From NCBI RefSeq assembly GCF_021065005.1, contig NZ_CP069247.1, positions 186,001 to 250,000 on the forward strand: a stretch of DNA of 64,000 bases, given 5' to 3'. This DNA is from Candidatus Gromoviella agglomerans (GTDB lineage: Bacteria > Pseudomonadota > Alphaproteobacteria > CAJXXZ01 > G021065005). Of this stretch, positions 20,157 to 58,059 are shown piece after piece. How positions within the stretch are numbered: position 1 is the first letter of the stretch; each line of letters begins with the position of its first letter. The notes under the pieces are model-generated. The model saw only the letters and a list, made by a program, of their open reading frames with translations, had not been told where the DNA came from and did no database searches. The position numbers and the translations under genes were made by a program.

Positions 20157-20352
20157 TAACCATCAGTCATAACAAAATAATTTGAATGTTATGAAATTAA
20201 CCAAGTAACCATCAATTATAACAATCGCCTCACAAAGAATCTTATAGCAGACACTGAGAGTATCATCAAAAAGATTCAATCAACACTCCCAGTTTAACGA
20301 AAAAATAACATTTGTAAAACTAAACTTGCACAGTCGCACATACATTTTTCTA

Positions 20353-21588
20353 ATGTTTGATAAATATAAAAAAACCATACCAGCTATTTTATGCTTAGTG
20401 TTAGTAATGGGAACTGAGGGCACATTGGTCAACGGAACACTATATAAATTTGATAAAGGAAGAATTTCCACTGCAAAATTAGGATCAAACGGCATAAAAT
20501 TCGATTCAGATAATAAAGTACCAAATGTACCGATTCAGACAAATCAATTTATTACACAACAAAAAAAGCCAGAATCAAGAATACAACAAACACAATACTT
20601 GCAGCCACCACCACAACCATACCAGCAGCCACAGCCATACCAGCAGCCACAACCATACCAGCAGCCACAGCCATACCAGCAGCCACAGCCATACCAGCAG
20701 CCACAGCCATACCAGCAGCCACAGCCATACCAGCAGCCACAGCCATACCAGCAGCCACAACCATACCAGCAGCTACAAATTCAAACCCCTAGTAGAATAA
20801 TAATAGAACAAACAAAAACACAAAGCTTTGAAGAAATAAATGGCTCACATTTCTTGTGGCTAGATGTAGATGCAATCAAAAATACAGTATATGAACCATT
20901 TGAAAAAATCGCATTTGGAATAAATTATGGTGCATTTAAACAAAAAGCTATACCAGGCAAGCCATTTGTAAATATAATGAATAGAATATCTCAATCTTTA
21001 TTATACTTAAGCGAAAATCAAGTAACATATAGAGCGATTAGTTTTAAATTTTATGCAAAAAATGGAATAGAGTTGTACAAGACTCCTCATATCCCTCAAA
21101 CTCAAACAAAGTCGAGCTCAATCATAAATGACAAAACTTTCTACCAAAATAGTTGGAAGTCAGGAATGTATAAACATATCACAGGAGCAGAAGCAATTAA
21201 CAATCATGATATAAAAAATATAGCCATCACTTTGAATCCAATCGAAGTAAAATTGTACTCTTATGACGAAGGAATGAAGAGAAGATTCGATGTCTTTGTA
21301 GTAGTGGAAATTGGCGAAATAGTAACTAATCCATCTGAAGAGGTTTTAATCATAGAAGTTCCGCCGTATAAATTTAATATATCAAAAGTACAAAATTCAA
21401 ATATTGCAGTAAAAAATGGAGATTTATACTCTAGCAATAATATAGATCATAAATTAACTACTAAGAAACTGTGTATTAATGGAACTAACCCTGCATTACG
21501 TGGAGAAACTCCAAGAATTTTGATGAATAAAGACATTGCAGATAAAATTTTGCATGAAGAAAAAAGTAATAGACAATATCAATATTGA
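20353..21588 (+). CDS. Exported protein with a Pro/Gln/Tyr repeat
   Basis: About 411 residues from the ATG at 20353 (nine more codons are open upstream to 20326). A signal peptide-like leader (MFDKYKKTIPAILCLVLVMG) is followed by about 60 residues, then nine hexapeptide units QPYQQP (positions about 86-145) and a globular C-terminal domain of about 270 residues with no family I recognise (segments WLDVDAIKNTVYEPFEKIAF, YRAISFKFYAKNGIELYK, FDVFVVVEIGEI). The repeat is a flexible, probably wall-spanning linker. The layout, signal then proline-rich linker then domain, suggests a periplasmic or surface protein. dnaE follows in the same direction 50 bp later. Confidence 0.6.
   Translation: MFDKYKKTIPAILCLVLVMGTEGTLVNGTLYKFDKGRISTAKLGSNGIKFDSDNKVPNVPIQTNQFITQQKKPESRIQQTQYLQPPPQPYQQPQPYQQPQPYQQPQPYQQPQPYQQPQPYQQPQPYQQPQPYQQPQPYQQLQIQTPSRIIIEQTKTQSFEEINGSHFLWLDVDAIKNTVYEPFEKIAFGINYGAFKQKAIPGKPFVNIMNRISQSLLYLSENQVTYRAISFKFYAKNGIELYKTPHIPQTQTKSSSIINDKTFYQNSWKSGMYKHITGAEAINNHDIKNIAITLNPIEVKLYSYDEGMKRRFDVFVVVEIGEIVTNPSEEVLIIEVPPYKFNISKVQNSNIAVKNGDLYSSNNIDHKLTTKKLCINGTNPALRGETPRILMNKDIADKILHEEKSNRQYQY
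20611..20772 (+). repeat. 18-bp x9 in-frame minisatellite
   Basis: Nine units of CCACAGCCATACCAGCAG (minor A/G changes), each encoding one QPYQQP hexapeptide. The units are nearly identical and far richer in G/C than the host gene, so recent expansion is likely. Confidence 0.95.
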
Positions 21589-28310: not shown

Positions 28311-28735
28311 TCATTATTGAGCAGAATCACCTGCGCGACACTCACTCATTATTATGCAGAATCACCTGCGCGACATTCACTCATTATTATGCAGAATCAT
28401 CTGCGCGACATTCACTCATTATTATGCAGAATCACCTGCGCGACACTCACTCATTATTGAGCAGAATCACCTGCGCGACACTCACTCATTATTGAGCAGA
28501 ATCATCTGCGCGACATTCACTCATTATTGAGCAGAATCATCTGCGCGACATTCACTCATTATTGAGCAGAATCATCTGCGCGACATTCACTCATTATTAT
28601 GCAGAATCACCTGCGCGACATTCACTCATTATTGAGCAGAATCATCTGCGCGACATTCACTCATTATTGAGCAGAATCACCTGCGCGACACTCACTCATT
28701 ATTGAGCAGAATCACCTGCGCGACACTCACTCATT
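28311..28735. repeat. 35-bp x12 tandem array (minisatellite)
   Basis: Twelve head-to-tail copies starting every 35 bases from 28321 to 28706; the last is cut after 30 bases, and ten bases of a unit precede the first. Each unit begins GCAGAATCA(C/T)CTGCGCG and continues GACA(C/T)TCACTCATTATT then AT or GA. The only differences are those two C/T sites and the final dinucleotide. The unit is near 48% G+C in AT-rich surroundings. It is not a multiple of three and frames across it break, so it is noncoding. There are no unique spacers, so it is not CRISPR. It lies 35 bases beyond the radC stop codon. Confidence 0.97.
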
Positions 28736-41743: not shown

Positions 41744-42114
41744 CAATTATTTTGCATCAAGATCAATTCTGTACATTTTACTTGTTCATAAATCATAATT
41801 ATTTGTCCATCATGTAATATCTGAAAGATAAGTGAGCCATTTGGTGGATTAATAAAAATATTTTCCAATTATCAATAGTGCAGGTATATATTAAAAATCA
41901 TATTGTGAATAAGATAATTGAATTTGAAATTACATCTTCGAAAATAAATAAGGTTTATAAATATGAACAAAACTAAGCAGAATAAACACCATCAAAAATG
42001 CCATCAATTGTTGCATCCATAGCGTTTATAAATATGAACAAAACTAAGCAGAATAAACACCATCAAAAATGCCATCAATTGTTGCATCCATAGCGTTTAT
42101 AAATATGAACAAAA
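41744..42114. other. 371-bp spacer, right half made of pdhA tail copies
   Basis: 41744-41952 holds no supportable gene; 41953-42114 is covered by two complete extra copies, and the start of the third copy, of the 71-bp unit that ends pdhA. Confidence 0.6.
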
Positions 42115-42165
42115 CTAAGCAGAATAAACACCATCAAAAATGCCATCAATTGTTGCATCCATAGC
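41953..42165. repeat. 71-bp x3 perfect tandem repeat including the pdhA 3' end
   Basis: Three identical units start at 41953, 42024 and 42095, each beginning GTTTATAAATATGAACAAAA. The third holds the pdhA stop (complement at 42115-42117) and last 16 codons; the first two repeat that tail, stop and 20 downstream bases. A further GTTT at 42166 marks the unit boundary inside the gene. 71 is not a multiple of three. Confidence 0.97.
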
Positions 42166-43152
42166 GTTTCTCGCATCATCGTAAGCGCTTGATATTATTA
42201 CTCGAATGTGCTCTTTCACAAAATCAACAACTTCTGCCCCACAATCGTGTGATAACTCATCTTCTAAGCGCATAAGTGGGTCTATACCTTTCATCTCATT
42301 GACCTCATCCTTTGTTCTATATAAAGCAGGATCTGACATTGAATGTCCTTTATACCTATAAGTTTTCATCTCAACAAGCTGTGGAGTTTGAGTTTTACGT
42401 ACATTTTCTATAATATTCATTAAGGAATTTCTGGCAGTTTTTACATCCATTCTTTCAATTAAAGTACCTTTTATTCCGTAAGGCTCACCTCTTTTAAACA
42501 AATCTCCCGCACAAGCACGCTCGCAGCTAGTTCCCATTCCATATCCATTATTTTCTATTATATAAAGCACAGGTAATTTCCACAAAGCAGCCATGTTGAA
42601 TGCCTCATACACCTGCCCCTGATTACTAGCCCCATCTCCCATAAAAGTCACAGTTATTCCACCATCTTCCTTATATTTGTGAGCAAAAGCAAGACCTGTC
42701 CCAATAGGGACTTGCGCTCCAACTATTCCATGTCCTCCCCAAAATCCTTCTTTTGTGTTAAACAAGTGCATTGATCCACCTTTTCCTTTAGCAGAGCCAG
42801 TAACTTTACCCATAAGTTCACTAAATATAGAGAATGGGGATGCTCCACTTAACAACATATGACCATGACACCTATAAGCTGTGATTACACTATCTTGTGG
42901 CAATAAAACAGACTGAACTGAAGTAGCCACTGCTTCTTGGCCAATGTATAAATGACAAAATCCGCCAATCTCTCTTTTACCATACACCGCGCCACATTTT
43001 TCTTCAAATTTTCTTATGAGATGCATTGCATAGTAAAGACTGATGCTCTCAAGCTGCAAAGAATTAAAATTAGCGTTTAGATTCTTAAGACATTTCTCCA
43101 ACTCAAAAACATTAAATTTATGAAAAGGGCACAAATTCATAATGTTCATCAC
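42115..43152 (-). CDS. pdhA: Pyruvate dehydrogenase E1 component, alpha subunit
   Basis: Thiamine-diphosphate-dependent decarboxylation of pyruvate, with PdhB. Seen: YAMHLIRKFEEKCGAVYGKR, GFCHLYIGQEAV, YRCHGHML, the TPP/Mg motif GDGASNQGQVYEAFNMAALW closing with ENNGYGMGTS, and the phosphorylation-loop-like YRYKGHSMSDPALYR. 345 aa; about 20 extra residues at the N-terminus before the core. The C-terminal codons form part of a 71-bp repeat. It diverges from pdhB over a 124-bp spacer instead of forming the usual pdhA-pdhB operon. Confidence 0.96.
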   Translation of the reverse strand: MMNIMNLCPFHKFNVFELEKCLKNLNANFNSLQLESISLYYAMHLIRKFEEKCGAVYGKREIGGFCHLYIGQEAVATSVQSVLLPQDSVITAYRCHGHMLLSGASPFSIFSELMGKVTGSAKGKGGSMHLFNTKEGFWGGHGIVGAQVPIGTGLAFAHKYKEDGGITVTFMGDGASNQGQVYEAFNMAALWKLPVLYIIENNGYGMGTSCERACAGDLFKRGEPYGIKGTLIERMDVKTARNSLMNIIENVRKTQTPQLVEMKTYRYKGHSMSDPALYRTKDEVNEMKGIDPLMRLEDELSHDCGAEVVDFVKEHIRVIISSAYDDARNAMDATIDGIFDGVYSA

Positions 43153-49571: not shown

Positions 49572-50285
49572 TTAACCATTCAACAAACTTGCTGTAGATT
49601 CCTCAATCGATTTTTCAAGCAAATTCATAAAACTCACTTTATCCATTCCACTCTTTATTGGAGGTAAGAATTGAACTGTAATAATACCTTGATACTTCAA
49701 AAAAGATCTTCTAGGCCAACACAAACCAGAGTTTAAAGCGACAGGAACAACATCAATTCCAGTTTTCTGATATATATAAAAAACTCCAGATTTGTATTTT
49801 TTTCTACTACCAACATTTACTCTTGTTCCTTCAGGAAAAATCAATAAAGACATACCATCATCAATTACTTTTTTGGCATCATCAACGTAGCTTAAATTCG
49901 GTTTCTTTCTATTTATCGGAATAACTCTAAATTTCTTAAAAAAAGTTCCCAAGAGAGGAATATACATCAATTCTTTCTTAACAAAAGCAGTAATATTACT
50001 CAAGAAAAAAGGAAATGCAAAAATATCCCACGACGACTGATGCTTCGATGCAAAAATCACTGTAGATTGAGGAATATTTTCCATCCCAAGGACTTGAAAC
50101 CTTATTTTGCATATCAATCTAGCACTTAATAAAACTCCTCCACACCAAATATCGCATAATTTTCTGATCCACGTCAAAGGTAACACAAGAAATGGAAGAA
50201 AAATTAGACAAAAAGCCACAGACCAAGCATACAGAAATACATTAAATACCAATGATCTAATGAAAACCACAAAATGATTCATCAT
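49572..50285 (-). CDS. plsC: 1-acyl-sn-glycerol-3-phosphate acyltransferase
   Basis: Second acylation in phosphatidic acid synthesis. The acyltransferase HX4D motif is KHQSSWD (His82, Asp87), followed by ELMYIPLLGTFFKKFRVIPI and FPEGTRVNVGSRKKYKSGVF; N-terminal hydrophobic segments anchor it to the inner membrane. 237 aa is normal. Its ATG overlaps the ftsX stop by four bases (ATGA), so the two are translationally coupled, and pth follows at 14 bases. Confidence 0.94.
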   Translation of the reverse strand: MMNHFVVFIRSLVFNVFLYAWSVAFCLIFLPFLVLPLTWIRKLCDIWCGGVLLSARLICKIRFQVLGMENIPQSTVIFASKHQSSWDIFAFPFFLSNITAFVKKELMYIPLLGTFFKKFRVIPINRKKPNLSYVDDAKKVIDDGMSLLIFPEGTRVNVGSRKKYKSGVFYIYQKTGIDVVPVALNSGLCWPRRSFLKYQGIITVQFLPPIKSGMDKVSFMNLLEKSIEESTASLLNG

Positions 50286-50983
50286 ATCCTCTTAATAGCA
50301 CTTCTGATTAATAGATGAAATATAGATAAGAACAACATCAGATAAAGAAACAATGAAAGACTAATGACGAAATAATCCACACTAGATCTCATAAAAAAAA
50401 TCATAATAAAACAAGAAAATAAGAAAAAATTAAGAATATAAAAACTCTTCCCTATGTTTTGCTTTACGATATTATAATATACAAAATCACTTGTCGCTCC
50501 TATTAGCCTCAAAGTGTGTATTTTATCGAAATTAGTAGACAAAACTAATCGAACACTTATCACAGCCCACAATATAGAAATTATAAAAAATATAAATGCA
50601 TTAAATGCTAAAAAAGACAGCCAAATATTTTCGAAAAGATATCCATAATCTTCTATTTTGTACGGTACATTATTTAAGTCCATAATATCTATTAATGACT
50701 TATCTCCAATAACCTCAAAAAAACCTCCGCATTTATCTTCAAAATACTCAGAAGAATCCTTAATCAAATGTAAAAGAGTAGTACTTGAAATAGATGAATC
50801 ACTCACTATTGCACAAGAAGACATCGCATATTGAGACAAAAACACTTTGCACTTAGACATTTGAAAACGATCAATGAATAGATTGAATCCAGACAAAATC
50901 ATCAGCAATATCATAACAAAGTACATCATTTTCTTTATGCCAAAATCGTAAGTATTACTTTTCTTAAGGTATAAATAGCTCAT
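50282..50983 (-). CDS. ftsX: FtsX-like permease subunit
   Basis: 233 residues with one N-terminal membrane helix (MMYFVMILLMILSGFNLFI), a periplasmic loop of about 90 residues, then three helices around residues 115-228. The segment HTLRLIGATSDFVYYNIVKQ is the FtsX/MacB-type coupling region (L-x-L-x-GA-x-x-x-x-I). It is shorter than typical FtsX (about 300) and the periplasmic domain is reduced. Position directly after ftsE identifies it. FtsEX links division to peptidoglycan hydrolase activation. Confidence 0.85.
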   Translation of the reverse strand: MSYLYLKKSNTYDFGIKKMMYFVMILLMILSGFNLFIDRFQMSKCKVFLSQYAMSSCAIVSDSSISSTTLLHLIKDSSEYFEDKCGGFFEVIGDKSLIDIMDLNNVPYKIEDYGYLFENIWLSFLAFNAFIFFIISILWAVISVRLVLSTNFDKIHTLRLIGATSDFVYYNIVKQNIGKSFYILNFFLFSCFIMIFFMRSSVDYFVISLSLFLYLMLFLSIFHLLIRSAIKRI

Positions 50984-50996
50984 TTCATCTCCTATA

Positions 50997-51653
50997 TTAT
51001 TTTATATGACGAATTGAAGTATCTTTTATAACAATATGAAAAACATCCCCCAAGCTACGCACAATAGAATGGTTATGAGTAGATAATATGATAGTCACTC
51101 CAATATCCTGCAAAGCTTTTAGCAATTTAATCACATGCCATGCATTTGCTTCATCGAGACTTTCGATAGGTTCATCAGCAATTATTATCTCAGGTTTTGC
51201 AATAACAGCTCGAGCAATTCCAACTCTCTGTTTCTCTCCTCCAGATAAAAATGAAGGATAAGCGTCGTAACAATTTATACCAGCCCAATCAAGCATTTTA
51301 TACGCCTGCTCTCTTGCTTCAAAAATAGGAAAATGACGCACACTCAGTGGCAAAGCAACATTATCGAGCACATTCATATCTTCAATCAATTTGAAATCCT
51401 GAAAAATAATGCCCAATCTTTGCCGCAAAAATGCTTTATCATTTATTCGAGAAAGGTCCTCATTCAACACAATTAAATTACCCCATGTTGGAGTCAAATC
51501 CATATATATCATACGCAGAAGAGATGTTTTCCCAATTCCGCTATCTCCAGTTAAAATACAAAACGAACCACAAGGAATATCTATGTTAGCACCTTCAAAT
51601 ATAATACGATCATCGTATGATAAACCAACATTTTTTAGAGACAATGCTATCAT
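50997..51653 (-). CDS. ftsE: Cell-division ABC transporter ATPase
   Basis: About 218 residues from the ATG at 51653 (MIALSLKNVGLSYDD); 20 more codons are open upstream but are not conserved. Walker A LTGDSGIGKTSLLRM (Gly-Asp-Ser-Gly-Ile-Gly-Lys-Thr), Q-loop LGIIFQDFKLI, signature FLSGGEKQRVGIARAV, Walker B EIIIADEPIESLD, and H-loop ILSTHNHSIV. FtsE powers FtsX. The gap to ftsX is 13 bases; with plsC and pth it forms a four-gene unit. Confidence 0.94.
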   Translation of the reverse strand: MIALSLKNVGLSYDDRIIFEGANIDIPCGSFCILTGDSGIGKTSLLRMIYMDLTPTWGNLIVLNEDLSRINDKAFLRQRLGIIFQDFKLIEDMNVLDNVALPLSVRHFPIFEAREQAYKMLDWAGINCYDAYPSFLSGGEKQRVGIARAVIAKPEIIIADEPIESLDEANAWHVIKLLKALQDIGVTIILSTHNHSIVRSLGDVFHIVIKDTSIRHIK

Positions 51654-51751
51654 AACATTCAACTCAATTTGGCAAGAGGTTATTACATAATTATTCTTAT
51701 TACAAGATATCAATTAACTTTAAAAAAATTTACTTTGAACCATATCAAGTT

Positions 51752-54700
51752 TTATTTTCTTTTTTTATCCTTATTTCCATGATTGTTTTCATGTGGCATC
51801 ATCACCATTCTATATCTACTTTTCGTCTTTTGGGCTTTATTTATAATAATTCCAAAGCGATTATCATCAAGTCTAAACAATCTTAGTGATTGATTTGGCA
51901 AATTAAAACGAAATTTAATGTCTCTCTCAGAATCCTGATTATCTGACTTGAGCAAAGTTATCTCTTCAATTTTATCTGTTTTCAATACAACCGCATAATC
52001 ACTTAAATGTGATGCACTATCGATAAAATTAATAATGTCTATAACGTTATAAGCGCCAGTATTATCAGGAAAAACCTCAACACCCTCATAATACATAGAA
52101 TGATCGTTTTCACAAACATGAGGAATATGATTATTATATTCGTCAGAAATAACATCTACTTTAGATTCTCTTATCTTAAACTCAGGCAAATTTTTTTCAT
52201 TTACAATCTCAGGATTAGCATGAAGATTAACACTCATATAAGGTTGTGAATCAATTTTCTGCTGAGCATTAAACAATTTCCAGTAATTTTTATGAATTTT
52301 TTGTCGTTGATGAGGATCATAATGAATTAAAACATGATCAGAGCATATGTCTTGATGATAGTGATCGCCATCTGATGTTTTCATAGAATTATCAACAAAT
52401 CGAGAATTTATATCAAAATATATCAATTCAGTAACAGATTCAGTCTGCACTTCCTGATCAGACATTTGATGAGGCGACCCAGTCTGCACTTCCTGATTCT
52501 GAGACTCGAATGCCGTTTGCACTTCCTGATTCTGAGACTCGAATGCCGTTTGCACTTCCTGATCAGACATTTGATGAGGTGACCCAGTTTGCACTTCCTG
52601 ATCAGACATTTGATGAGGTGACCCAGTCTGCACTTCCTGATTCTGAGACTCGAATGCCGTTTGCACTTCCTGATTCTGAGACTCGAATGCCGTTTGCACT
52701 TCCTGATTCTGAGACTCGAATGCCGTTTGCACTTCCTGATTCTGAGACTCGAATGCCGTTTGCACTTCCTGATTCTGAGACTCGAATGCCGTTTGCACTT
52801 CCTGATTCTGAGACTCGAATGCCGTTTGCACTCCCTGATTCTGAGACTCGAATGCCGTTTGCACTTCTTTCGCAAGCATTTGAGGAGATACCTGAATCTC
52901 AACACCCTTAATAGATGTATCTGCAGTCTGAGTATCTCTCTCTATAAACGTTTTAGATTTCAGAGCATCAAATTCCTTTCTTAATAGATTTAACTGATTA
53001 TGCAAAATTTCTTTTTGATGAGTCGTATCTATCAAAGCATCATGTAGCTGTAGATTCTCTGTTTTTTGCACCCTCAGAGCCGCTAACTGCTGCTCGTGCT
53101 GCTGCCTCAGAGCCGCCAGCTGCTGATCTTTCTCAGCCACCTGCTGCTCGTGCTTCTGCTTCAGAGCCACCAACTGCTGCTCGTTATCGGCCACCTGCTG
53201 CCTCAGAGCCACCACCTGCTGCTCGTGCTGCTGCCTCAGAGCCGCCAGCTGCTGATCTTTCTCAGCCACCTGCTGCTCGTTATCGGCCAGCTGCTGCCTC
53301 AGAGCCACCACCTGCTGATCTTTCTCAGCCACCTGCTGCTCGTGCTGCTTCCGCAAATCCGCCAGCTCCCGATCTTTCTCAGCCACCTGCTGCCTCAAAT
53401 CCGCTAACTCCCGATCTTTCTCAGCCACCTGCTGCCTCAAATCCACCACCTGCTGCTCGTTATCGGCCACCTGCTGCCTCAGAGCCACCACCTGCTGCTC
53501 GTGCTGCTGCCTCAGAGCCACCACCTGCTGATCTTTCTCAGCCACCTGCTGCTCGTTATCGGCCAGCTGCTGCCTCAGAGCCACCACCTGCTGATCTTTC
53601 TCAGCCACCTGCTGCTCGTGCTGCTTCCGCAAATCCGCCAGCTCCCGATCTTTCTCAGCCACCTGCTGCCTCAAATCCGCTAACTCCCGATCTTTCTCAG
53701 CCACCTGCTGCCTCAAATCCACCACCTGCTGCTCGTGCTGCTGCCTCAGAGCCACCACCTGCTGCTCGTTATCGGCCAGCTTCTGCCTCAAATCCGCCAG
53801 CTGCTGCTCGTTATCGGCCAGCTTCTGCCTCAAATCCGCCAGCTGCTGCTCGTTATCGGCCAGCTTCTGCCTCAGAGCCACCACCTGCTGCTCGTGCTGC
53901 ACCTTCAGAGCCACCACCTGCTGCTCGTTATCGGCCAGCTGCTTCCGCAAATCCGGCAACTGCTGCTCGTTATCGGCCACCTGCTGCTCGTGCTTCTGCT
54001 TCAGAGCCACCAACTGCTGCTCGTTATCGGCCAGCTGCTTCCGCAAATCCGCCAACTGCCGCTCATTATCGGCCACCTGCTGCTTCAGAGCCACCACCTG
54101 CTGCTCGTGCTGCACCTTCAGAGCCACCACCTGCTGCTCGTTATCGGCCAGCTTCTGCCTCAAATCCACCACCTGCTGATCGTTATCGGCCAGCTTCTGC
54201 CTCAAATCCGCCAACTGCTGCTCGTGCTTCTGCTTCAGAGCCACCACCTGCTGCTCGTTATCGGCCAGCTTCTGCCTCAAATCCACCACAGCCTGCGATT
54301 CAGCTAATTGATCTGCTAAACTTTCTACCACATGACCACCTGCTTCATAATCAGAAAAATCTGCATCAAATGAATTTGATGGCAAGTCATCATGTTGCTC
54401 ACGCAGTATCTTATTTTCCCCACGCAATTCATCATTTTCCCCACGCAGTATCTTATTTTCTCCACGCAATATATTATATTGAGCAAGCAATTCCTCATTT
54501 TCACCAAGCAATGTCTTATATTCACTAAGCAATTCCTCATTTTCTCCACGCAATTGATTATTTTCACCACACAATTCCTCATTTTTCCCACGCAATTGAT
54601 TATTTTCCCCACGCAATTGATTATTTTTATCACGCAATTCATTCAAACAAGGACGTACTTCTAATAATTCTGCTTCTAATGCTTCATTCTTTTGTTGAAA

Positions 54701-56626
54701 AGAATCCAACTGTCGATTTATTTCCACTAAATGTTGACTTTGAAGATTATAATTCTCAATTATACCTGCTCCAAATAGCAAAGAATCGACTATTGATTCT
54801 CCATAACCTGCAAATTGAGGATGCTTTTTTAGTTCAGAATATTGAGATAGCAGATTAACACCACCACCTGGCTTAGTAGAATCAATACGATACTTCAGAT
54901 CACTCATACAACTATTAATAAGGCCAACCAAATATCCAGTAATCTTCTGTATAGACTCTTTATCAACACCTCCTATGCGAAAGAGAATTAATCCTTGATT
55001 AATAAGATTTACAGCAGAAAACCCCTTAATATTTCGAGTATAATATTCGACCTCCTTAAGATTATTAATATTATTACGTAACTCTCTAGGCAAATAAGCA
55101 TCAATGGTATGCATACATATAGGAAGTTCTTCTTTATCATATACAATACGACCTAATCCTTCCTCGAGAAAAATTAATCCTTGACTAATAACATCCGGAT
55201 TAGTTTTATCCAAGGTATCCACCACTATCAGATCTAAGCTTCCGTCAGGGTCTATCTGTTCTTCTTCACTAATTGATTGGTGCAAAAAATCTAGCCTCAC
55301 CTTTTTTGGTGAGTTAGTCACCATCAATTTAGTCAGGTGATTCAGTTGCTTCATCAACGCATTAAAGTGATCTGGAGATTCATCACTCTCTGAATTTTGC
55401 TGATTTTCTTTTTGTATGGGTGATTGATGAATGATTTTAATGCATTCCAGTTCTTTTATAGCAGAATCTAGAGCTTTATTTTTTTCTTCAAGCTCAATCA
55501 CTTTTTCAGTACGCGCTTCGCATATTCTAACTAACTGCTTATTATGCATATCTAGCTCTGCAATTGACTGTTCATGAAGATTGTTTTTATTTCTAAGACG
55601 TTCTATCTCTGCATTGGCTTGATCGAGACATAGAGCGTACTCTTGATTTGTTGCTTTTAAAGATACCTGATATTCATGGTCCCGTTTATTTTGTTCATAA
55701 GATACACTAAGCTCATCTATAATGGATGGTATTATATTACTTACAAAATCCATAAGAGAAATTGGAGCGTCTAATCCACATGACTTACTAAGGGTTTCTG
55801 AATGCTTTTTCAGCTCATCTATAATGGATGGTATTACATTACTTACAAAATCCATAAGAGAAATTGGAGCGTCTAATCCACATGACTTACTAAGGGTTTC
55901 TGAATGCTTTTTCAGCTCATCTATAATGGATGGTATTACATTACTTACAAAATCCATAAGAGAAATTGGAGCGTCTAATCCACATGACTTACTAAGGGTT
56001 TCTGAATGCTTTTTCAGCTCATCTATCATCCTGATGAATTGTAGTGTAGGCTCCCCTTCGTCACCCAATTCTTTAGATAAATCAAGGTTTTCACACAATT
56101 GTATAATAAACTTTTCAAGTATCTGTAATCTTTCAAGTTTTTCTGCTACATCTCCATCTTGATTAAATTGCTCATCTTGCTTGGATTTTTTTACAAATTT
56201 ATCCTCAGAACTTGCACATTGCAACTGAAGAAATTGCACTTCCTCCTCTAATACTGCAATGCGTGAGTCCCTCTCTTTCAATTCGAGTTTTAATTTTTCT
56301 ATTTCATCAAGACTATTACGTGATTTAATCTCATATTCCAACTCTAGACGGGGTGAAATTGCCTCCGTAGATGGGCTATTCGGTTGAAGAGATTGATTAG
56401 GAAGCTCATCAATTAACTTTGCAAATAACTGTATCACACTATAAGTACCTGAGTTTCCACCTTGTACAATAATTTTATGCAATTGCGCACTGAGTCTATT
56501 AAATGCTTCTAATTGAGTACTTGACTCAGGACAAGTTGCCTCCAAATTAGAATTAGAACACATAGAAACTGTACTCCACATTGGTAAAATCGTAGTACAA
56601 ACTATTAATATGACCTTTTTCTTCAT
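51752..56626 (-). CDS. Giant exported coiled-coil repeat protein
   Basis: 1,624 residues, unlike any named family I know. A signal peptide (MKKKVILIVCTTILPMWSTV, cleavage near 23) is preceded by AGAGGT seven bases from the ATG. Order: N-terminal coil (about 90-200); three 34-residue repeats (204-306, IIDELKKHSETLSKSCGLDA...); coil with a globular part (about 420-620); 7-residue LRGENNQ/LLGENEE repeats (about 663-741); a long region of 14- and 11-residue units such as LADLRQKLADNEQQ and VVALRQQHEQQ (about 776-1190); EVQT repeats (about 1253-1396); and a non-repetitive C-terminal part of about 230 residues with a basic end. A long periplasmic or surface rod is likely; surface adhesin or host-directed factor is inference. 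Downstream of nothing; its own transcript divergent from xer. Confidence 0.8.
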   Translation of the reverse strand: MKKKVILIVCTTILPMWSTVSMCSNSNLEATCPESSTQLEAFNRLSAQLHKIIVQGGNSGTYSVIQLFAKLIDELPNQSLQPNSPSTEAISPRLELEYEIKSRNSLDEIEKLKLELKERDSRIAVLEEEVQFLQLQCASSEDKFVKKSKQDEQFNQDGDVAEKLERLQILEKFIIQLCENLDLSKELGDEGEPTLQFIRMIDELKKHSETLSKSCGLDAPISLMDFVSNVIPSIIDELKKHSETLSKSCGLDAPISLMDFVSNVIPSIIDELKKHSETLSKSCGLDAPISLMDFVSNIIPSIIDELSVSYEQNKRDHEYQVSLKATNQEYALCLDQANAEIERLRNKNNLHEQSIAELDMHNKQLVRICEARTEKVIELEEKNKALDSAIKELECIKIIHQSPIQKENQQNSESDESPDHFNALMKQLNHLTKLMVTNSPKKVRLDFLHQSISEEEQIDPDGSLDLIVVDTLDKTNPDVISQGLIFLEEGLGRIVYDKEELPICMHTIDAYLPRELRNNINNLKEVEYYTRNIKGFSAVNLINQGLILFRIGGVDKESIQKITGYLVGLINSCMSDLKYRIDSTKPGGGVNLLSQYSELKKHPQFAGYGESIVDSLLFGAGIIENYNLQSQHLVEINRQLDSFQQKNEALEAELLEVRPCLNELRDKNNQLRGENNQLRGKNEELCGENNQLRGENEELLSEYKTLLGENEELLAQYNILRGENKILRGENDELRGENKILREQHDDLPSNSFDADFSDYEAGGHVVESLADQLAESQAVVDLRQKLADNEQQVVALKQKHEQQLADLRQKLADNDQQVVDLRQKLADNEQQVVALKVQHEQQVVALKQQVADNERQLADLRKQLADNEQQLVALKQKHEQQVADNEQQLPDLRKQLADNEQQVVALKVQHEQQVVALRQKLADNEQQLADLRQKLADNEQQLADLRQKLADNEQQVVALRQQHEQQVVDLRQQVAEKDRELADLRQQVAEKDRELADLRKQHEQQVAEKDQQVVALRQQLADNEQQVAEKDQQVVALRQQHEQQVVALRQQVADNEQQVVDLRQQVAEKDRELADLRQQVAEKDRELADLRKQHEQQVAEKDQQVVALRQQLADNEQQVAEKDQQLAALRQQHEQQVVALRQQVADNEQQLVALKQKHEQQVAEKDQQLAALRQQHEQQLAALRVQKTENLQLHDALIDTTHQKEILHNQLNLLRKEFDALKSKTFIERDTQTADTSIKGVEIQVSPQMLAKEVQTAFESQNQGVQTAFESQNQEVQTAFESQNQEVQTAFESQNQEVQTAFESQNQEVQTAFESQNQEVQTAFESQNQEVQTGSPHQMSDQEVQTGSPHQMSDQEVQTAFESQNQEVQTAFESQNQEVQTGSPHQMSDQEVQTESVTELIYFDINSRFVDNSMKTSDGDHYHQDICSDHVLIHYDPHQRQKIHKNYWKLFNAQQKIDSQPYMSVNLHANPEIVNEKNLPEFKIRESKVDVISDEYNNHIPHVCENDHSMYYEGVEVFPDNTGAYNVIDIINFIDSASHLSDYAVVLKTDKIEEITLLKSDNQDSERDIKFRFNLPNQSLRLFRLDDNRFGIIINKAQKTKSRYRMVMMPHENNHGNKDKKRK
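52440..52872 (-). repeat. 33-bp and 39-bp in-frame repeats coding EVQT units
   Basis: Nine copies of an 11-residue unit EVQTAFESQNQ (33 bp; one starts GVQT) and three of a 13-residue unit EVQTGSPHQMSDQ (39 bp). Order in the protein: seven of the first, two of the second, two of the first, one of the second. The 33-bp copies are nearly identical in DNA, which implies recent spread or conversion. Confidence 0.95.
53060..54300 (-). repeat. G/C-rich coiled-coil repeat block (33/42-bp units)
   Basis: About 1.2 kb of mosaic units encoding 14-residue double heptads (LADLRQKLADNEQQ, LADLRQQVAEKDRE) and 11-residue hendecads (VVALRQQHEQQ). A larger stretch of some 240 bp recurs (around 53240-53480 and 53520-53720). 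The block is much richer in G+C than the genome, with codons like CAG, CTG, GCC, GAG favoured. Confidence 0.92.
54407..54640 (-). repeat. 21-bp in-frame heptad repeats
   Basis: About eleven degenerate 21-bp units coding LRGENNQ, LRGKNEE, LLGENEE, LRGENKI and similar; one exact heptad per unit, typical of a regular parallel coiled coil. Confidence 0.85.
55711..56016 (-). repeat. 102-bp x3 in-frame repeat
   Basis: Three nearly identical 102-bp units (starts 55711, 55813, 55915; a further partial start at 56017) coding 34 residues each with KKHSETLSKSCGLDAPISLM; only a V/I change (SNVIPS/SNIIPS) separates the copies. Each holds one cysteine. Confidence 0.95.
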
Positions 56627-56889: not shown

Positions 56890-57831
56890 ATGCAAGATAT
56901 ACTTCAAGATGAAGTTATAAAATTATTAACAGACTATGAATCATGGATTTTGCATGAAAAGGCTTACGCAAAAAACACTTTATTCAACTACAAAAATGAC
57001 ATTAAATCACTGTTAATGTTTATGTTTGACAAACAAAAATGCAAAATTTCCTTAAGGGATATAAAGATGACCACTCCATCCTTAATTCGTGAATTTATGA
57101 CCTCAAAAATCATTTGCAAAAACAGCAAAAAACGCACTTTATCATCAATAAAATCACTACATAAATTCATGATTAAAAAAAAAATATTAAGTGAGAGCCA
57201 CATTTTATGCATGGAACAAGGGAAAGGTGAAAAACCAATTCCAAAACCAATCTCATACGAAGAAATCGTTAATATTATTAACAATTCTCCCAACAAACTT
57301 GCTCGCGCAGTATTTTTTTCTCTGTACGCAACGGGATTACGAATATCAGAACTCCTTTCACTGAGATTAACCGATCTCACATGCATGATACAAAAAAGAG
57401 AAATAATAGTAAAAGGAAAAGGAGAGAAAGAAAGATTAGTACCAATTATAAGCAAACAAATAAAACTGATTATAGATTATTTGTCAGAAAAATATAAAAT
57501 TCACGAATCAGAATTCGAAAACTTGATTCAACAAAAATCAAATGAATTCATATTTTCCTCGAAAAGAAATGTGGATAAACCACTGTCAGCGAGGTATATT
57601 CAGATAATCATGAAAACAATCATTGAAAAAAATGGAATACATAAAAGATATACACCTCATAGCTTTCGCCACAGCTTTGCATCTCACATGATTGAAGATG
57701 GAGCTCCCATTCGTCATGTTCAAGAATTGATGGGCCACAAATCCATAAGATCGACTCAAATATACACAAAAATAGATACTAGAAAATTCATTGCAAATCA
57801 TCAAAAATTCCATCCTCGAAATAATAATTGA
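56890..57831 (+). CDS. Tyrosine recombinase, Xer type
   Basis: 313 residues with an N-terminal SAM-like DNA-binding domain and a complete catalytic set: Arg151 (ATGLRISELLSLRL), Lys175 (IVKGKGEKER), His257 and Arg260 (PHSFRHSFASHM), His283 (LMGHKSIRSTQ) and Tyr292 (IYTKID). It ends HQKFHPRNNN, near the usual XerC/D end. XerC/XerD resolve chromosome dimers at dif; which of the two this is cannot be told without comparison. The stop codon arises where a tandem copy of the 3' end begins, so the last codons may have been altered by the duplication. Confidence 0.9.
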   Translation: MQDILQDEVIKLLTDYESWILHEKAYAKNTLFNYKNDIKSLLMFMFDKQKCKISLRDIKMTTPSLIREFMTSKIICKNSKKRTLSSIKSLHKFMIKKKILSESHILCMEQGKGEKPIPKPISYEEIVNIINNSPNKLARAVFFSLYATGLRISELLSLRLTDLTCMIQKREIIVKGKGEKERLVPIISKQIKLIIDYLSEKYKIHESEFENLIQQKSNEFIFSSKRNVDKPLSARYIQIIMKTIIEKNGIHKRYTPHSFRHSFASHMIEDGAPIRHVQELMGHKSIRSTQIYTKIDTRKFIANHQKFHPRNNN

Positions 57832-58059
57832 AGATGGAGCCCGTTGTTCAAGAATTGATGCATCACAAATCCATAAGATCGACTCAAATATACACAAAAA
57901 TAGATACTAGAAAATTCATCAAACCATCAAAAATTCCATCCTCGAAATAATAATTGAAGTGAAGCCCGTTGTTCAAGAATTGATGGGCCACAAATCCATA
58001 AGATCGACTCAAATATACACAAAAATAGATACTAGAAAATTCATTGCAAATCATCAAAA
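57691..58059 (+). pseudogene. Tandem copies of the recombinase 3' end
   Basis: Three repeats: 57691-57826 (inside the gene), 57827-57952 and 57953-58059. Each starts ATTGAAG and includes codons for VQELM-x-HKSIRSTQIYTKID with the catalytic His/Tyr. Copies 2 and 3 share a derived GCCCGTTGTTCAAG where the gene has GCTCCCATTCGTCATGTTCAAG-type sequence, so one was copied from the other. Copy 2 is damaged (MHHKS, then TRKFIKPSK); copy 3 keeps an open frame from a GTG at 57959 to 58156 but lacks the rest of the enzyme. Confidence 0.88.

Follow-up and report, generated by a model that had tools for sequence, protein, structure and literature searches.

A predicted exported coiled-coil protein built from five repeat classes in the reduced genome of Candidatus Gromoviella agglomerans

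A single uninterrupted reading frame of Candidatus Gromoviella agglomerans (51752..56626, minus strand) encodes a predicted exported protein of 1,624 residues that combines five classes of repeat unit. It adds a lineage-specific case to an established kind of protein, the coiled-coil proteins that host-associated bacteria export and build from repeats. The reading favored here, to which we give about an even chance, is that of a Sec-exported, lineage-specific fibrous spacer protein at the bacterial surface or host interface. Ca. G. agglomerans is a symbiont of Paramecium polycaryum with a one-contig genome of 590 kbp and 32% GC (PMC11909080), and probably lives inside Paramecium. The window analyzed is the 64,000-nt stretch at positions 186001-250000 of the 589,967-bp contig (window GC 32.6%), and coordinates are those of the window unless they carry the contig prefix C1.

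Repeat architecture and rod geometry

The frame begins with ATG and runs for 4.9 kb with no internal stop codon, and every repeat unit in it is a multiple of 3 bp. Units of 34, 7, 11/14, 11 and 13 residues were all found, as the original prediction had described. The first class is a 34-residue repeat (DELKKHSETLSKSCGLDAPISLMDFVSNVIPSII, 3.1 copies with a 102-bp period) at residues about 201-305 (55710..56026, minus strand). It is followed by a non-repetitive middle part, residues 310-627 (54746..55699, minus strand), to which neither profile nor relative searches assigned a family. Residues about 662-742 (54400..54643, minus strand) form a heptad block of LRGENNQ type, with a 21-bp DNA repeat mapped to 54400-54639, modeled as helix by single-sequence AF2 at a pLDDT of about 80. 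Next comes the main rod, residues 770-1190 (53057..54319, minus strand; GC about 57%), tiled by units of 7, 11 and 14 residues and recognized from its repeats, its periodicity and a modeled AF2 helix; TRF reported periods of 33, 42, 117 and 276 bp in it, and one 276-bp block is duplicated.

Behind the rod lies the EVQT array, residues 1228-1398 (52433..52945, minus strand), which a motif scan and cassette alignment resolved into DTQT and EIQV, followed by 13 VQT sites at intervals of 11 or 13 residues. The 11- and 13-residue cassettes cover 52441-52867 in the order AFESQNQ seven times, GSPHQMSDQ twice, AFESQNQ twice and GSPHQMSDQ once. This 7-2-2-1 order is as first reported, and together with cassette copies that are almost identical in DNA it supports the unequal exchange proposed from it. 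The AT-rich C-terminal part, residues 1398-1624 (51755..52435, minus strand), has no family by profile search and no barrel or anchor signature; its single-sequence model, with a few low-confidence strands, is unusable at a mean pLDDT of 32. Nearly identical DNA copies had been claimed within each class. That description fits the 34-residue repeat (99% match), the EVQT cassettes, whose copies differ by hardly a letter, and the 276-bp block (95%), but not the heptads, which at 73-78% alike are an older block.

The mixing of heptads and hendecads was said to keep a hydrophobic seam, and this is borne out by marker spacing and periodicity. Successive markers of the rod (DNEQQ, HEQQ, EKDRE and their variants) are separated only by 7, 11 or 14 residues. 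Over residues 770-1190 hydrophobicity has a period of 3.54, which falls between the heptad value of 3.50 and the hendecad value of 3.67, at a strength reached in none of 300 shuffles. A single-sequence AF2 model of residues 640-1400 placed helices at 641-745, 778-887, 903-1023, 1035-1222, 1248-1333 and 1355-1381. These helices are interrupted at the linker behind the heptad block and at the 13-residue cassettes; because the model's mean pLDDT is only 64, we take the model as supportive of a helical state and not as proof. Periodicity and model together predict a coiled coil for the rod. The continuous rod suggested earlier is therefore retained in part: helical geometry holds over 421 residues, but breaks occur at about 743-767 and at the 13-residue cassettes.

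No match to the protein passed the cut-off in Pfam, NCBIfam or PDB, the last searched by sequence without any match, and no relative was found, so the statement that it has no known family stands. The repeats gave sub-cut-off coiled-coil matches and the unique parts nothing convincing. General coiled-coil likeness or composition is all that is shared with the helix-rich Mycoplasma protein model TIGR04523 (44.8 bits, cut-off 270), the SMC model (29.9 bits, cut-off 567) and the intermediate filament model, Pfam Filament (19.1 bits, cut-off 40). A profile search with the C-terminal domain, which could have placed it in a cytoplasmic family, gave no match at all. Residues 1-659 found no relative in the species-genome collection or in phages, the last 230 residues none within the order, and the protein as a whole none in seven order-mates; among 40 relatives searched with the whole protein, one had a weak coiled-coil similarity. 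These relative searches were pattern-seeded, and distant relatives could escape them.

Related rods and G-ending codons in the same genome

Searching with the whole protein returned two further places in its own genome. The protein is not a one-off within this genome: its rod is common to a second leader-bearing protein. That protein, of 532 residues with a GTG start and a hydrophobic leader (G000:C1:138655-140253, minus strand), has the same DNEQQ/HEQQ/EKDRE rod units at 76-94% DNA identity over short stretches. Homology of the two rods at the DNA level was seen by blastn as matches of 87% over 94 bp, 82% over 125 bp and 94% over 48 bp, with E-values down to 1e-30 that are optimistic owing to low complexity. 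It differs from the window protein in lacking the 34-residue repeats, the EVQT array and the window protein's C-terminal part.

A tandem cluster of four leader-bearing coiled-coil genes, of 2171, 1498, 1096 and 271 residues, lies at G000:C1:143159-158913 (minus strand). Their leaders are near-identical (VKKVFIPLLCLISYQFHLSSKNGSTEA..., 69-92% identity to the first; pattern VKK[VI]F[IV]PLLCLIS), and their 45-bp upstream sequences differ by only a few bases. In three of the four the leader is followed by GAAPGYVGKVGSVN-type repeats, and the coiled-coil bodies beyond these differ from one another in both length and sequence. The cluster resembles the window protein in its leaders, its long repeat-built coiled-coil bodies and its G-ending rod codons; it differs in having its own leader and upstream sequence and the GAAPGYVGKVGSVN repeats, and blastn found no DNA match between the window rod and the cluster rods at 1e-5. 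We considered the window gene as a member of the cluster family and did not file it there, since it has neither the cluster leader nor the 45-bp upstream sequence; a search with the cluster N-terminus does not return it. Neither the 532-residue protein nor the cluster N-terminus had a match in the seven order-mates. Rod sharing, and a separate cluster absent from sequenced relatives, suggest at the level of sequence a fast-changing host interface. A leader-like fifth fragment was noted beside the cluster (C1:142341-142424), and two more frames with hydrophobic leaders adjoin it (C1:160210-161777).

The rods share a bias in codon composition. G occupies 71% of third codon positions in the window rod, against 18% in residues 1-628 of the same gene; in the 2171-, 1498- and 1096-codon genes the rod values are 67%, 75% and 62%. 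Across the four genes rods thus range over 62-75%, versus 13-21% in the non-rod parts measured. Codons ending in a purine have moved much further than those ending in a pyrimidine: the window rod uses CAG 101 times and CAA twice for Gln, GTG for all 48 Val, GAG 38 times and GAA once for Glu, and GAT 38 times and GAC never for Asp. We also considered that biased conversion had simply raised GC, a process not expected to spare GAT. Because GAT was spared while CAG, GTG and GAG became nearly exclusive, we favor repeat amplification, and infer that a founder unit in which most third positions were G was multiplied by slippage in frame or by unequal exchange. Such rods with G at every third base illustrate concretely how in-frame slippage may lengthen coiled coils. 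A reduced genome of 590 kb retains, and apparently still amplifies, leader-bearing genes for coiled-coil repeat proteins that together exceed 20 kb; these are a likely host interface and provide a short candidate list in a symbiont lineage for which few effectors are known.

Tandem repeats were also seen elsewhere in the window. An 18-bp repeat (9.3 copies) overlaps a 420-residue frame with a hydrophobic N-terminus (20326-21588), a 35-bp repeat of 12 copies at 95% (28311-28735), with a period that is not a multiple of 3, is apparently intergenic, and three identical 71-bp copies (41953-42169) overlap the 3' end of the frame at 42115-43152.

Export and place of action

Residues 1 to about 23 (56558..56626, minus strand) form a Sec-type leader, MKKKVILIVCTTILPMWSTVSMC, by hydropathy and with the cleavage site judged by eye; it consists of KKK and a hydrophobic core, without a clear lipobox. 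The leader is the hydropathy maximum of the whole protein and supports the exported leader first proposed, and the hydropathy scan showed no second transmembrane-like segment in the 1,624 residues. We argue for Sec export because this leader is present and nothing else in the protein looks like a membrane segment. Export itself, oligomerization, outer-membrane crossing and host contact are all steps that we infer for this protein.

As we picture the surface or host-interface spacer, the leader would bring the protein to the inner membrane, to be inserted there or carried through. Long helices would be formed by the rod of 7/11/14-residue units together with the heptad block, the simplest arrangement being a coiled coil of about 60 nm (421 residues x 0.15 nm). 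They would hold the N-terminal and C-terminal parts far apart, and the EVQT/13-mer segment may serve as a hinge or flexible stalk joining the rod to the C-terminal part. Rod and stalk lengths could vary through in-frame unequal exchange. The protein would act on the outer surface, or be released into the host, in attachment, aggregation or masking. We place it there because the periplasm has no room for an upright 60-nm rod, and because other exported coiled-coil proteins of the same genome share a leader and differ in their bodies. A host-facing role is also favored because Holospora obtusa has periplasmic proteins of 63 kDa and 89 kDa that get as far as the Paramecium host or come to be exposed to it (PMC9866348). 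These two, PRP1 and the invasion-tip protein, are likewise exported and host-directed, and H. obtusa is a Paramecium symbiont from the same family (PMC9866348); they are described as DNA-binding and actin-motif proteins, and their likeness to the window protein is one of description.

Further points in favor of the spacer are the formation of aggregates by Ca. G. agglomerans in its host (PMC11909080), the intact 4.9-kb frame with its leader, the rod period and modeled helices over 641-745 and 767-1222 with short breaks, and the presence of rod DNA in a second leader-bearing protein and of a separate leader-bearing cluster, none matched in the seven order-mates. Against it stands the route out of the cell. 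The autotransporter domain PF03797 had no match across the whole genome, so the window protein, with no C-terminal barrel of this type and a C-terminus without family or anchor signature, lacks the mark of a type V protein. The genome's match to the outer-membrane-channel family scored 21.2 bits, just under the curated cut-off of 22. A T6SS sheath protein is encoded above cut-off. The leader and upstream sequence are unlike those of the cluster, which tells against counting the gene in that family. Tandem-repeat effectors of the Ehrlichia/Anaplasma type are secreted by a type I system (T1SS) and are not known to have an N-terminal Sec leader; the window protein differs from them in its N-terminal hydrophobic leader.

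A Sec-type leader with no outer-membrane exporter found would also suit the main rival, a periplasmic or envelope scaffold lying along the membrane and aiding cell shape or division, which we regard as possible but doubtful. It draws on the gene neighborhood. The location next to ftsE and divergent from a recombinase was confirmed, both neighbors being sub-cut-off profile matches: an FtsE-like ABC ATPase gene lies downstream on the same strand, outside the protein (50997..51713, minus strand; best NCBIfam match TIGR02673 FtsE, 194.7 bits, cut-off 264.85), and a XerC/XerD-type tyrosine recombinase gene is divergent (56890..57831, plus strand; 226.2 bits, cut-off 335). The FtsE-like gene is followed by an FtsX-like gene (50282-50983), assigned only from its position and transmembrane pattern. 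But a conserved link to ftsE is unsupported, the best ABC matches near the loci examined in relatives being of LolD type, and lineage restriction with fast repeat turnover is unlike a core division protein. At 57717-58059 a 125-bp tandem repeat (2.7 copies, 93%) copies the 3' end of the recombinase gene past its stop codon.

It is unlikely that the protein is a cytoplasmic, intermediate-filament-like cytoskeletal element whose N-terminal stretch is an uncleaved anchor or goes unused. Its coiled-coil architecture and the weak Filament match agree with that, but a sub-cut-off score of this size is typical of any coiled coil, and KKK with a hydrophobic core makes a standard-looking leader of a sort that several similarly built proteins in the genome carry. 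We hold it somewhat less probable still that the repeats grew mostly neutrally by slippage and have little function of their own: near-identical copies and runs of G-ending codons in several genes do point to amplification, but units in frame, a hydrophobic seam over 421 residues and the lack of stop codons along 4.9 kb, all in a 590-kb reduced genome, speak against it.

The EVQT array and dynein light chain

The EVQT array invites one further reading, as a multivalent mimic that would bind host dynein light chain (LC8) dimers like beads and tie the bacterium, or the released protein, to dynein, or crosslink dynein. All 15 [TVI]Q[TV] triplets of the protein, each carrying the LC8 anchor, fall within residues 1232-1395 at spacings of 11-13, directly behind the rod, with a single one in 5,568 residues of five other leader-bearing proteins. 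The two cassettes have [DN]QEVQT in common, and this stretch falls on positions -4 to +1 of the LC8 footprint; the letters in which they differ would be linker. VQT is an accepted anchor, through which ZFPM1, SON and MAST1 bind (PMC6607443; PMC12017986), coiled coils commonly adjoin LC8 sites (PMC12017986), and the cassette linkers of 3 and 5 residues lie inside the range of 1 to 41 residues between the LC8 sites of ASCIZ (PMC10046861). The multivalent LC8 clients Nup159 and ASCIZ likewise carry [TV]QT anchors in tandem close to a coiled coil, human ASCIZ with 11 motifs against up to 15 putative ones here; the window array differs from them in being bacterial, a single amplified motif and scored no higher than non-binders.

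Controls weakened this as a strong reading, which we retain at low probability. Thirteen of the copies are one amplified unit and are not independent. With a PSSM from published LC8 binders, 14 sites scored 8.0-11.8 and EIQV scored -0.6, compared with leave-one-out binders at a mean of 14.0 and published anchor-bearing non-binders at a mean of 9.5; because the sites score below most binders and level with the non-binders, the PSSM cannot discriminate here. In the window's other frames, 2 of 18,678 octamers reach 8.0, a rarity that mainly reflects the anchor. At least 118 further records matched a scan for four xQT with 11-residue periodicity; many come from free-living bacteria, and some, such as ADLKQEVQTGF, are clear hendecad coils. 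Single-sequence AF2 on the array gave helix for the 11-mers and none for the 13-mers, at a pLDDT of up to about 70, whereas LC8 needs disorder, and the protein would also have to be delivered to the host cytosol. We judge it very unlikely, on motif evidence, that the symbiont multiplied one short unit and so evolved an exported coiled coil with up to 15 putative LC8 motifs that would tether to or crosslink host dynein/LC8. The bacterial hendecad coils ADLKQEVQTGF and TELRSEMQTRI resemble the EVQT cassette.
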